Source: Desulfosporosinus youngiae DSM 17734
GTDB taxonomy: Bacteria > Bacillota > Desulfitobacteriia > Desulfitobacteriales > Desulfitobacteriaceae
Reading direction: 5' to 3'
Assembly: GCF_000244895.1 (NCBI RefSeq)
Contig: NZ_CM001441.1
Span: 434,001 to 498,000, forward strand
DNA length: 64,000 nucleotides
Shown piece by piece: positions 14,144 to 56,339 of the stretch. The position numbers and the translations under genes are program-made. Every line of letters starts with the position of its first letter. The first letter of the stretch is position 1. The notes under the pieces are model-generated. The model was given only the letters and a program-made list of their open reading frames with translations. It made no database searches and had not been told where the DNA came from.

Positions 14144-14252
14144 TACTCTCATCTCTCAGAACCTGGGGTTCTGCTGGAATTAGCACCTCATAGCTTACGC
14201 TATCGGTTGCCGGGCATCATAGGGCCAGTCCCTCCGCCGCTCTTGATAAGAG
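14144..14252 (-). promoter_or_regulatory. SAM-I riboswitch (S-box)
   Basis: The minus strand shows the S-box consensus: CTCTTATCAAGAG (start of P1), GGCGGAGGGACTGGCCC, ATGATGCCCGGCAACC, GGTGCTAATTCC, then closing GAGAGATGAGAG. It is followed by a terminator and metY-metA. Confidence 0.97.
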
Positions 14253-29632: not shown

Positions 29633-29649
29633 TGAGAAGTTCCTGCTTG

Positions 29650-29742
29650 TAATCTGGCGATCCTAGCCTAATTCCAATATGAATTAGCAGCCTTAGACCC
29701 ATGATTTTAGCGTCCTTCGCTTTCGCGAAGTTTACCCCAACC
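29650..29742 (-). promoter_or_regulatory. GEMM-I riboswitch (c-di-GMP class I) upstream of nhaB copy 1
   Basis: The minus strand reads GGGTAAACTTCGCGAAAGCG (stem with GAAA tetraloop), AAGGACGCTAAAATCATGGG, TCTAAGG, then GGCTAGGATCGCC. This matches the GEMM-I consensus (GGNAAAC, GAAA loop, GGACGC, CCTAAGG-like, TAGCCGGGTTGCC-like). A terminator follows, so it controls transcription of the peptide gene and nhaB. The ligand is probably c-di-GMP; cGAMP-specific variants exist. Confidence 0.85.
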
Positions 29743-29780
29743 GATTTTAAGAGTATTTAGTTGTACAATACTATTCAGGC

Positions 29781-31873: not shown

Positions 31874-31894
31874 CTGAGAAGTTCTTTGCTTGTA

Positions 31895-31994
31895 GCCTGG
31901 CGATCATAGCAAATTCGAAGTGCGTTGACAGCTTCCAATAGCCTTAGACCCATGACTTTAGCGCCCTTTGCTTTTACAAAGTTTACACCAACCG
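31895..31994 (-). promoter_or_regulatory. GEMM-I riboswitch upstream of nhaB copy 2
   Basis: Minus strand: GGTGTAAACTTTG, CAAAGGGCGCTAAAGTCATG, GGTCTAAGG, then GCTATGATCGCC. It shares these landmarks with the aptamer at 29650. The loop of the first stem is not a GNRA tetraloop, so binding may be weaker. Confidence 0.8.
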
Positions 31995-32049
31995 AACTTG
32001 AGTTATTTAAATTCTTACTCAATTAGAAAACTCACTCGAAATCATTGGT

Positions 32050-37560: not shown

Positions 37561-37639
37561 GACACGCGCAAAACTTTATGGTTGACATACTTGGCTAAGA
37601 TAAGATACGATAACATTAAACTAACTAAATAATGGGATA

Positions 37640-37795
37640 AAGGTGCGAGTACTACGGTACAGCTTAAAAGGGAAGCAGGTAAAAGTCCTGCACGGTCCCG
37701 CCACTGTAATGGGGAGATGTTTCATATCAGGCCACTGGTCCATACCGGGAAGGCGTGAAGCATTAGTGAACCAAAGTCAGAAGACCTGCCTTTAT
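37640..37795 (+). promoter_or_regulatory. Cobalamin riboswitch upstream of nrdDG
   Basis: It shows the B12-box and flanking consensus: GGGAAGCAGGTAAAAGTCC, CGGTCCCGCCACTGTAA, CGGGAAGGCG and AGTCAGAAGACCTGCC. With the downstream terminator it should shut off the B12-independent reductase when cobalamin is abundant, favouring a class II (B12-dependent) enzyme encoded elsewhere. Confidence 0.96.
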
Positions 37796-37864
37796 TCGGG
37801 GAACCAATAACTCTACGAGCGATAGGGGGGTTCATTACTAAGTTGTATTCAGGGATATACACGA

Positions 37865-54059: not shown

Positions 54060-55310
54060 TCAGGGAGTCTCGTACTGGACAAGCTTTCCTTCCCAAGTAC
54101 GCAAAATGGCTTTGTTTTCATCCAGGGACATAAGGTATTGAGGTAAAATGGGTGTCTTGCCTCCGCCTTTAGGGGCATTTATAATATAGGTAGGCACCGC
54201 AAGTCCGGAAGTATGCCCGCGTAACTGTTCCATAACGGCAAGTCCTTCTTGGACCCGGGGAACAAAATGGCGTGTTCCTTTGACGTTCTTAGCATGAAAA
54301 ATATAGTAAGGGCGAACCCTGATTTTAAGAAGTTCCTGATTAAGTTTCTTCATAACCTCAGGCTGATGATTTATTCCTTTGAGCAGAACCGCTTGATTGC
54401 CTAAGACTACCCCGGCTGAAATAAGTTTATCAGCCGCTTTTTTAGCGTCTTCAGTGACCTCTTTGGGGTGGTTGAACTGGGTGTTAATATAAATGGGCGG
54501 ATATTTGGCCAGTACTGAACATAATTCATCTGTCACGCGCATGGGCAGAGTCACAGGAGCTCTGGTGCCAAGCCGCTTAATTTCTACGTGAGGAATAGCA
54601 TGAAGTTCACTCAGCAGCCAATCTAAGGTTAGATCGCTGAGCAGTAAGGCGTCTCCTCCGGTTATTAAAACGTCACGAATTTCAGGGTTTGCCCGAATAT
54701 AATCCAGTGCAGCTTTAAGCTGAGTTCGCGGCGAGTGGGTATCGGTTTCACCAATATTGCGTCTTCGCTGGCAGTGCCGGCAGTACATAGCGCACATGTT
54801 GGTGACGTTGATGATCAGGCGGTCCGGATATCTGCGGGTAATGCCGGGAGCAGGGGACGTGATTTTTTCTCCCATTGGGTCATCTTCTCCAAAGTCATCG
54901 GCCAGTTCAGCCAGTGTTGGCAAGCCTTGCAGCCGAATTGGGTCCAGAGAATCCGTATCACTCATTAAACTTAGATAATAAGGGGATACAGCCCAACGAA
55001 AGGTTTTGCCGACACGATTAATTTCTTCACATTGATCGGGGGTTAATCCGGGGAGCAGATCAATTAAGACATGAGGGTCTGTGATTCTATGGGTCATTTG
55101 CCAATGCCAATTTTCCCAGTCTTCAAGTGTTGCATTAAAATAGTTTAGAATACTTGTACGACGGGATCGGTAGACCTCCGAGAGTGACAATCCTGTCGGA
55201 ATTGTTTTAGAGGCTTGTAAATATGGGGCAACCAGTTTTTTAAGATCAACTGCTCGCTTCAAGGCATATTGCCGGAAGGTATCCGCACGTTCTTGGATTT
55301 CTACTGCCAT
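54060..55310 (-). CDS. eam: Glutamate 2,3-aminomutase (KamA family)
   Basis: 416 residues. Radical SAM cysteines C173, C177 and C180 (CAMYCRHC) and PLP-type PKGGGK (381-385) mark the lysine 2,3-aminomutase family. Two positions distinguish substrates: lysine enzymes have Asp at both, 37 residues apart; here they are K341 (FHAKNV) and N378 (IINAP), the pair reported for glutamate 2,3-aminomutase. It would make beta-glutamate, an osmolyte. ATG 55310 follows GGAGGA; the open frame upstream covers the riboswitch. Controlled by a c-di-AMP riboswitch. Confidence 0.82.
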   Translation of the reverse strand: MAVEIQERADTFRQYALKRAVDLKKLVAPYLQASKTIPTGLSLSEVYRSRRTSILNYFNATLEDWENWHWQMTHRITDPHVLIDLLPGLTPDQCEEINRVGKTFRWAVSPYYLSLMSDTDSLDPIRLQGLPTLAELADDFGEDDPMGEKITSPAPGITRRYPDRLIINVTNMCAMYCRHCQRRRNIGETDTHSPRTQLKAALDYIRANPEIRDVLITGGDALLLSDLTLDWLLSELHAIPHVEIKRLGTRAPVTLPMRVTDELCSVLAKYPPIYINTQFNHPKEVTEDAKKAADKLISAGVVLGNQAVLLKGINHQPEVMKKLNQELLKIRVRPYYIFHAKNVKGTRHFVPRVQEGLAVMEQLRGHTSGLAVPTYIINAPKGGGKTPILPQYLMSLDENKAILRTWEGKLVQYETP

Positions 55311-55395
55311 ATATCCTCCTCCTTTGTTTTCAAAGAGAATTCCGCTTGATGGCTGTTCTTCTCTTGAATTGTAAAGTATGTTGAATAATTTTTGA

Positions 55396-55434
55396 AAACA
55401 AAAAGAACCTATCAAAACAAATGAATCGGTTCCT
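55396..55434 (-). terminator. Terminator of the c-di-AMP riboswitch
   Basis: Minus strand: AGGAACC pairs with GGTTCTTTTTG, between the aptamer and the aminomutase gene. It provides transcription-off control. Confidence 0.8.
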
Positions 55435-55472
55435 AAAGAATAAACGTAAAATATCACGCTAACGTGTTTCAA

Positions 55473-55600
55473 CGCTTACGAGGTTAGCTGTCGGATTCGA
55501 GCTGAAAACTGCTCTACGCCAGTTGGCGATTCACCCCCAAAGTGGTTCCCCCGTTTTCCTTTAGGAAATTCAGCTAAGCATAATAATCACTTACGACTGA
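55473..55600 (-). promoter_or_regulatory. c-di-AMP riboswitch (ydaO-yuaA type)
   Basis: Minus strand carries the class consensus: GCTGAATTTCC, AACGGGGGAACCA, TGGGGGTGAATC, CTCGAATCCGACAGCTAACC, then CTCGTAAGCG. The aptamer precedes a terminator and the glutamate 2,3-aminomutase gene. Confidence 0.93.
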
Positions 55601-55607
55601 CAACCTT

Positions 55608-55636
55608 ATAATACCACCAGGGTTGTTACTTGTCAA
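55608..55636 (-). promoter_or_regulatory. Promoter of the eam transcript
   Basis: Minus strand: TTGACA (55631-55636), 17 bp, TATTAT (55608-55613), just upstream of the riboswitch. Confidence 0.85.
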
Positions 55637-55739
55637 GAGCATGATGTCACAGGGATTTGGCTATGTTATAATAGAATAGATTTTTTACGATCAAGAAGGT
55701 TTATTAATACTAGCGAATATAGATTAGGGGTTGAACACA

Positions 55740-56339
55740 TTGGAAAAAGCTCGGTATCAGGAAATTGCCATTGATATTGCTCACGCTATCATGATGGGAG
55801 AGTATCACGAGGGGGTTAAAATTCATGGTCGTTCGACGTTAGCAGGGCGGTATAATGTTTCTCCGGAAACTATTCGCCGGGCCATTGCAGTTCTGCAGAA
55901 TGTCGGTGTGGTTGTAGTAAGTCAGGGCGTAGGTATTACCGTAACCTCAAAGGCTATGGCCGAGAAATTTGTTAAATCCTTTGATCAAAAAGGAGAAATT
56001 CAGGTCTTCGTTGAAGATCTGAAAAAGCTCATGGATCAAAGGCGCGAAACGGATTTAAAGATTGAGAGCCATCTTAATAAATTCCTTGGTTATACTGAGC
56101 GCTTGATGTCCCGATGGATGGATGTGGGGGAGATTGAAATAGGAAAAACCTCTCCTGCTATTGGCAAGACGTTGAGGGAGTTAAAAGTTCGTGAGCGCAC
56201 AGGAACAACGATTGTTGCAGTGGTTAGAGACGGTTTTGAACAGTTTTCTCCGGACGCAAGCCTGGTCCTGCGCGGGGAAGATGTCCTCCTGGTGGCCGGC
56301 TCTGCGGAGGGCCAAGAGAAGTTAAGGTCTATTCTGTGA
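55740..56339 (+). CDS. BusR-like regulator: GntR-type HTH plus RCK_C (TrkA-C) domain
   Basis: About 199 residues. The N-terminal winged helix (YQEIAIDIAHAIMMGEYHEGVKIHGRSTLAGRYNVSPETIRRAI) is of the GntR type. The central coiled coil precedes a C-terminal RCK_C domain (IGKTSPAIGKTLRELKVRERTGTTIVAVVRDG). This is the layout of BusR, the c-di-AMP-binding repressor of osmolyte uptake. TTG 55740 follows AGGGG. Divergent from eam. The window contains no osmolyte transporter, so its target may be eam or a distant locus. Confidence 0.8.
   Translation: MEKARYQEIAIDIAHAIMMGEYHEGVKIHGRSTLAGRYNVSPETIRRAIAVLQNVGVVVVSQGVGITVTSKAMAEKFVKSFDQKGEIQVFVEDLKKLMDQRRETDLKIESHLNKFLGYTERLMSRWMDVGEIEIGKTSPAIGKTLRELKVRERTGTTIVAVVRDGFEQFSPDASLVLRGEDVLLVAGSAEGQEKLRSIL

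Follow-up and report, generated by a model that had tools for sequence, protein, structure and literature searches.

The region analyzed here is a 64-kb stretch of DNA from Desulfosporosinus youngiae DSM 17734 (hereafter the window), whose genome is held in a single contig of 5.66 Mb. Two divergently oriented genes are found at 54060-56339: eam, whose product is predicted to be a glutamate 2,3-aminomutase, and a gene for a regulator resembling BusR. Between them lie the predicted eam promoter and operator, a riboswitch of the cyclic di-AMP (c-di-AMP) class and an intrinsic terminator (Table 1). An original prediction, made from the sequence alone, had described these genes as a c-di-AMP osmolyte module; the observation is confirmed as real and well supported, and the system is larger than first described. 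The same genome encodes a diadenylate cyclase domain (PF02457) and a separate ablA gene (TIGR03820, 631 bits), which adjoins ablB (TIGR03827, 212 bits; cut-off 205).

The eam product exceeds the cut-off (650 bits) of the NCBIfam equivalog TIGR04368, 'glutamate 2,3-aminomutase', while its scores against the lysine and arginine models (456.8 and 358.5) are both below their cut-offs (525.4 and 600). In the alignment with the structure 2a5h, K341 and N378 replace two Asp residues of lysine 2,3-aminomutase, which we take to be the lysine-binding pair D293/D330; Asp is kept at both positions in the ablA product of the same genome. The CxxxCxxC motif of radical S-adenosylmethionine (SAM) enzymes begins at C173, and K385 is the presumed pyridoxal phosphate lysine. 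Translation likely starts at the ATG at 55310, behind AGGAGGA, rather than at the TTG of a 470-residue open reading frame (ORF). The assignment to glutamate, originally based on K341/N378, is thus in agreement with both the family model and the alignment. The expected product would be beta-glutamate, with a presumed role as an osmolyte. In the part of PMC1224877 available to us, beta-glutamate is a static, salt-responsive osmolyte of methanogens and a few bacteria; the same text excludes an aminomutase route to it in methanogens by nuclear magnetic resonance (NMR), so that the osmolyte role of eam rests on analogy.

The aptamer upstream of eam matches RF00379 over its full length (model positions 1-134, E 1.7e-20 in the covariance-model scan), and the terminator is evident both in the sequence and in its fold, which bears out the earlier description of a ydaO-type riboswitch with a terminator before the aminomutase. 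A similar terminator element was located in 19 other eam leaders. Across the 20 aligned leaders, the left side of the terminator can pair with the 5' hairpin of the aptamer. Among 17 distinct pairs the native duplexes averaged -13.7 kcal/mol versus -11.95 for mismatched ones, and 0 of 20000 permutations reached the native mean, in a test that ignores kinship and uses terminator arms found with motifs chosen by eye. The duplexes of L029 (-7.4) and L011 (-9.8) were weak, and in L007 the minimum-energy fold differs from a simple terminator. The terminator and its covarying alternative pairing point to an expression platform coupled to the aptamer, and the arrangement predicts that transcription would be OFF at high c-di-AMP.

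A bipartite inverted repeat, predicted to be the operator of the BusR-like regulator, overlaps the -10 element of the eam promoter and abuts its -35 element, the two being separated by 17 bp; a protein bound there would therefore hinder the polymerase. The repeat ACTAACAAC-N17-GTTGTTAGT, or a near variant, was present in 29 of the 30 eam loci that were fetched (28 chosen automatically and one, L016, by eye after the script took another spacing), while the remaining locus, L009, matches it weakly (15.2 bits). A position weight matrix (PWM) of the half-sites was built from these 29 loci of family f1 and tested on a separate family, f3, with 15 loci. Of the 22 spacings compared there, 17 scored highest in all 15, with scores from 8.0 to 24.5 (at least 14.0 in 13 of them), although four of these loci, L206-L209, are near-identical and the independent cases are therefore fewer than 15. 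The operator has the form [G/A]AC-N23-GT[C/T], and all 47 eam loci that have the regulator share this spacing. It is the sole PWM site of at least 12 bits in the window; three genomes simulated from the dinucleotides of the window gave 0, 1 and 1 sites of at least 17.5 bits and none of at least 20.

Table 1. Features of the eam-regulator region, in window coordinates.
Feature	Position	Strand	Basis
eam, glutamate 2,3-aminomutase, 416 aa	54060..55310	-	TIGR04368 695.1 bits; 2a5h alignment; residues K341/N378
Intrinsic terminator, AGGAACC...GGTTCTTTTT	55400..55434	-	Sequence; fold -9.7 kcal/mol
Terminator left side, putative antiterminator strand (extent approximate)	55430..55445	-	Native versus mismatched duplex energies
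c-di-AMP riboswitch aptamer, ydaO type	55458..55585	-	RF00379 92.7 bits (gathering 38)
Aptamer 5' hairpin, putative antiterminator partner	about 55559-55570	-	Pairing with terminator left side
Predicted bipartite operator of BusR-like regulator, ACTGACAAC-N17-GTTGTTACT	55596..55630	.	29 training loci; 15/15 f3 spacing
Predicted eam promoter -10, TATTAT, within operator spacer	55608..55613	-	Sequence
Predicted eam promoter -35, TTGACA, abutting operator	55631..55636	-	Sequence; TTGAC before operator in 29 training loci
BusR-like regulator: winged helix (GntR), 57-residue helix, RCK_C/TrkA_C	55740..56339	+	Pfam; PDB sequence match; AlphaFold2 (AF2); Foldseek

The divergent gene had been said to encode a GntR-type helix-turn-helix/RCK_C protein with the layout of BusR, and three lines of evidence accord with this: the GntR and TrkA_C Pfam domains, the closest solved relatives by sequence, which are BusR, and the fold. 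In the AF2 monomer model (pLDDT 83.8, pTM 0.45) a long helix joins the winged helix-turn-helix and RCK_C domains, and ranks 1-13 of the Foldseek search were all BusR chains, with a loose whole-chain superposition (TMq 0.37-0.52). The gene probably starts at the TTG at 55740, as suggested by its orthologues, rather than at 55731, where the ORF can open. According to the accessible text of PMC8517857, BusR is a tetramer with c-di-AMP, binds GAC-N22-GTC and contacts DNA by K36, R38, R53, K54, G70 and G72. In an alignment read by eye, five of these six positions are kept or conservatively changed (R34, R49, R50 in a Lys-to-Arg exchange, G66 and G68), while K36 corresponds to H32. The regulator resembles BusR in architecture and predicted targets, and c-di-AMP may be its ligand.

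The linkage of the two genes was surveyed across 82 class genomes. The regulator was found in 57 of them, with a single match in each at E<=1e-20, eam in 50 and both in 47, and in all 47 the two genes are divergent neighbors (in G031 the regulator is cut by a contig end). A site of at least 14 bits is present at 45 of the 47 eam promoters with the regulator versus one of the three where no regulator was detected (Fisher 0.014; 29 of the 45 are training loci, all on the same side of the table). The original prediction had placed the regulator beside the aminomutase; the adjacency holds, but the regulator appears to be more than a neighbor, since its predicted operator covers the eam promoter. 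Ten further genomes carry the regulator with no TIGR04368 hit over the cut-off, and in five of these (G012, G033, G034, G002 and G027, the last with a broken eam) a site adjoins the regulator. The riboswitch, in contrast, occurs at 21 of the 50 eam loci: in 19 of the 30 fetched loci, in L093 but not in L094 and L092 (further f1 loci), and, in family f3, in none of the 15 loci with the regulator, in L219 but not in L220. As judged from these occurrences (47/47 adjacency versus 21/50), the regulator is the more conserved layer of the predicted control and the riboswitch the variable one. No Na+ riboswitch above its Rfam cut-off was detected in six Rfam scans covering the window and the loci of relatives.

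Distant GntR/TrkA_C homologues with 38-48% identity (L264 and L266-L303) occur in Desulfotomaculum-like and Syntrophomonas-like Clostridia, and several have a KtrA-like 'FRAR' stretch in RCK_C. In these 39 loci, which belong to 80 loci retained from 340 relatives, no good operator (the best being L287 at 14.8 and L286 at 13.4) and no close eam were detected (L276 has an aminomutase of 49%).

The extent of the putative regulon was analyzed by searching 45 genomes of the family for TRACAAC-N17-GTTGTYA with zero mismatches. This yielded 47 perfect sites in 32 genomes, versus five for the reversed pattern, and 39 of the 47 were located at osmolyte genes or at the regulator: 20 at eam, two at a regulator without eam, eight at an ablA-type aminomutase (the G022 copy with an internal stop), two at ehuB, four at an opuA-type betaine/proline transporter, two at an opuC-type transporter (a ProV-subfamily ATPase in L155 and an OsmF-like binding protein, below cut-off, in L158) and one at a trehalose-phosphate synthase/phosphatase. 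Three more precede an amino-acid ABC transporter that is elsewhere divergent from ablA (two of them, in G015, on a contig without ablA), three belong to c-di-AMP riboswitch cassettes without an obvious osmolyte gene, and two were classed as unrelated, one lying among liv-type genes in G006 and the other in G017. Sites with up to two mismatches were at background genome-wide (58 versus 62 for the reversed control), and hence only perfect or orthologue-conserved sites were used.

In the genome of the window, the operator is also found at ablAB and ehuB. The ehuB site scores 17.6 bits and is counted because all nine ehuB orthologues have it (versus none of four paralogues), simulated genomes reaching 17.5 bits; two of the nine were first found through the pattern. 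Among ablA-like loci, a site of at least 14 bits accompanied 16 of the 21 with an ablB match versus one of the 19 without (Fisher 4.7e-6, kinship ignored). These 40 loci were drawn from 48 below-cut-off aminomutase places, excluding G022:C21, which was examined separately, and seven fragments or weak hits. Four of the five site-less loci with ablB have weak ablB matches (25-29% identity), and the fifth (L066) lies at a contig edge. For the opuA-type ATPase, four of six close orthologues carry a site, all four first found through the pattern, versus none of seven distant ones; no match to this ATPase was found in the genome of the window at E<=1e-120, with 40 of 190 candidates scored. A DUF456 gene (G000:C1:411704, PWM 18.8) was considered as a fourth regulon member of this genome and rejected: of eight homologues in the genus, its own copy alone carries the site, which is therefore treated as chance or private. 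The operator near ablA is shared with an amino-acid ABC transporter (L171:1753-2526, L163:1383-2162, with partial copies in 10 of the 40 loci), which may import an osmolyte or an osmolyte precursor. Taken together, the distribution of sites predicts that a BusR-type regulator runs a regulon of osmolyte synthesis and uptake, which in 21 of 50 genomes is supplemented by a c-di-AMP riboswitch at eam.

The tandem of operator and c-di-AMP riboswitch extends beyond eam to ehuB of G004 (L156), ablA of G040 (L078) and the cassettes of G013, G016 and G024. In these cassettes (L162:2696-2940, L164:2340-2564 and L167:1530-1770; Rfam 90.9-104.9 bits) a terminator-like hairpin is followed by differing small genes, and they may be either what is left of a lost gene or RNAs that function by themselves. 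No operator was found at the three other c-di-AMP riboswitch loci of the genome of the window.

With 96.7 bits, the top-scoring c-di-AMP riboswitch of the genome lies at L001:1501-1650 (G000:C1:4031162-4031311), where the ORF list shows no same-strand ORF of at least 100 residues within about 850 bases downstream. Other riboswitches in the window comprise two of the c-di-GMP-I type, about 2 kb apart on the minus strand (29645-29746 and 31888-31997; 51.7 and 37.9 bits), a cobalamin riboswitch (37624-37807, plus strand) and a SAM riboswitch (14146-14252, minus strand).

The explanation considered probable is that eam is doubly gated, by the BusR-like repressor at its promoter and by the c-di-AMP riboswitch, with the same repressor serving further osmolyte genes. 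The regulator would occupy the bipartite operator, whose half-sites lie about three helical turns apart, cover the -35 and -10 elements and block initiation. Transcripts that escape would carry the riboswitch; at high c-di-AMP the aptamer would close, its 5' hairpin would no longer engage the terminator's left side, and transcription would end. A drop of c-di-AMP under salt stress would open both locks, and the enzyme would convert glutamate to beta-glutamate, an osmolyte that is metabolically static. This repressor, present once per genome, would also serve ablAB (N-epsilon-acetyl-beta-lysine), ehuB (uptake of ectoine) and, in relatives, genes of the opuA, opuC and otsAB types. Sequence comparison establishes the enzyme family, the riboswitch, the covariation between aptamer and terminator, and the conserved operator with the genes it accompanies; that this regulator occupies the operator and represses, its ligand, the direction of the response and the identity of the osmolyte are predictions. 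In a broader form, which is favored only slightly, one messenger would be read twice per transcription unit, first by the protein as transcription initiates and later by the RNA during elongation. The protein would act as master repressor over osmolyte supply in Desulfitobacteriales-type bacteria (covering synthesis of beta-glutamate, N-epsilon-acetyl-beta-lysine and trehalose, and uptake of betaine and ectoine), and the RNA layer would be gained and lost gene by gene over a stable protein layer.

Several observations weigh against this double gating by a shared messenger. The operator, GAC-N23-GTC, is one base over the N22 of BusR, and two f3 sites score 8.0 and 11.8. Of the three genomes with eam and no detected regulator, G042 (76% complete) has a weak site (15.2), while G047 and G071 have none; five of the ten genomes with a regulator and no above-cut-off eam have no 14-bit site beside it (G001, at 11.3, G021, G036, G037 and G041). 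As far as the BusR pocket is set out in the literature available to us, only three of its 11 residues are identical in the regulator (V158, T165 and I166), with a conservative change of I153 to Leu; the others are G154 to R149, N157 to K152, W159 to R154, H160 to E155, A164 to T159, G180 to D175 and P181 to A176. E155, invariant in 28 orthologues, occupies the place of the phosphate-binding His of BusR, and W159, the autoinhibition residue, is thus Arg. Such a pocket would suit a gate with two signals, in which the regulator represses at the operator while its RCK_C domain senses ionic strength, K+ or another nucleotide, and the riboswitch reads c-di-AMP. In line with this, BusR of Lactococcus lactis answers ionic strength in vitro, according to the part of PMC10243994 at hand, and 28 of the 29 eam loci without a riboswitch have the regulator. 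Yet BusR and KtrA differ at several pocket positions and both bind c-di-AMP. With KtrA as an alternative model, in the portion of PMC7288161 available, five of the nine positions common to both lists match either protein, chiefly R154, which is invariant, a property also ascribed to the KtrA Arg. Moreover, the tandem of riboswitch and operator recurs in four gene contexts, which would be expected of elements that read one signal. A gate of two signals is rated as unlikely, though as the strongest of the alternatives.

Binding of the operator by the regulator is itself a prediction, and the repeat could be read by another transcription factor while the adjacent GntR/TrkA_C gene regulates something else; the five genomes just mentioned, among the ten without an above-cut-off eam, would fit such a case. 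The invariable adjacency of regulator and eam (47/47), the perfect site kept beside the regulator in G012 and G033, which lack eam, and a geometry and opuA-type targets that fit the BusR paradigm make this improbable. A main activity of the enzyme on lysine or another amino acid, in catabolism, is more doubtful still. The parent family is that of lysine 2,3-aminomutase and the aminomutase route was excluded in methanogens, as noted above, but the model scores, K341/N378, the separate ablAB pair and the osmolyte gene set of the operator all argue for glutamate. The idea given the least credence holds that the inverted repeat reflects common descent only, as a dyad within a conserved promoter: the operator does touch both promoter elements and the genomes are related, but the arms are strongly conserved outside the promoter hexamers and are found again in front of unrelated osmolyte genes, and few sites match the reversed pattern (5 versus 47).

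Control of osmolyte synthesis by a c-di-AMP riboswitch is already published for ablA: the accessible part of PMC9337991 describes ablA as preceded by Na+ and c-di-AMP riboswitches in tandem, which were assayed by in vitro transcription, and lists eam among Na+-riboswitch genes. The prediction that c-di-AMP controls osmolyte synthesis at this locus is supported by the riboswitch at eam, but is not new in kind. What is new is the breadth of the predicted BusR-type regulon and the double gating by protein and RNA; no description of this regulon or of such stacking was found in the open-licence literature as far as it was accessible, older riboswitch surveys lying outside the search. In the literature covered, BusR represses a single betaine transporter of lactic acid bacteria, and these bacteria appear to be without c-di-AMP riboswitches in the text available of PMC10243994. 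Here, a protein of this type is predicted to control a wide range of osmolyte genes, those for the synthesis of two beta-amino-acid osmolytes among them, in Desulfosporosinus, Desulfitobacterium and related bacteria. The loci with operator only, riboswitch only or both form a natural series bearing on why cells stack two sensors per promoter.

In comparison with known systems, the eam product shares sequence family and substrate residues with the TIGR04368 glutamate 2,3-aminomutases, while its regulatory setting differs. The aptamer is a complete member of RF00379 (ydaO/yuaA), well above the gathering score, and no difference from that family was found in it. The ablA gene of Dehalobacter sp. 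CF, as portrayed in the available text of PMC9337991, likewise encodes an aminomutase that forms an osmolyte and is preceded by a c-di-AMP riboswitch and terminator that turn OFF with ligand, as is predicted for eam. Its second input comes from a Na+ riboswitch, whereas at eam a repressor predicted to bind the promoter would take that role. With BusR of Streptococcus agalactiae and Lactococcus lactis, the c-di-AMP-dependent repressor of busA/opuA, the regulator shares the GntR winged helix, the long helix and RCK_C, together with a predicted bipartite operator about three turns apart over the promoter, and opuA-type genes are among the predicted targets in relatives. Unlike BusR, it has an operator with N23 rather than N22, changes in most pocket residues and in the autoinhibition Trp, a gene divergent from eam, and a predicted regulon that covers osmolyte synthesis (eam, ablAB and otsAB) and ectoine uptake.

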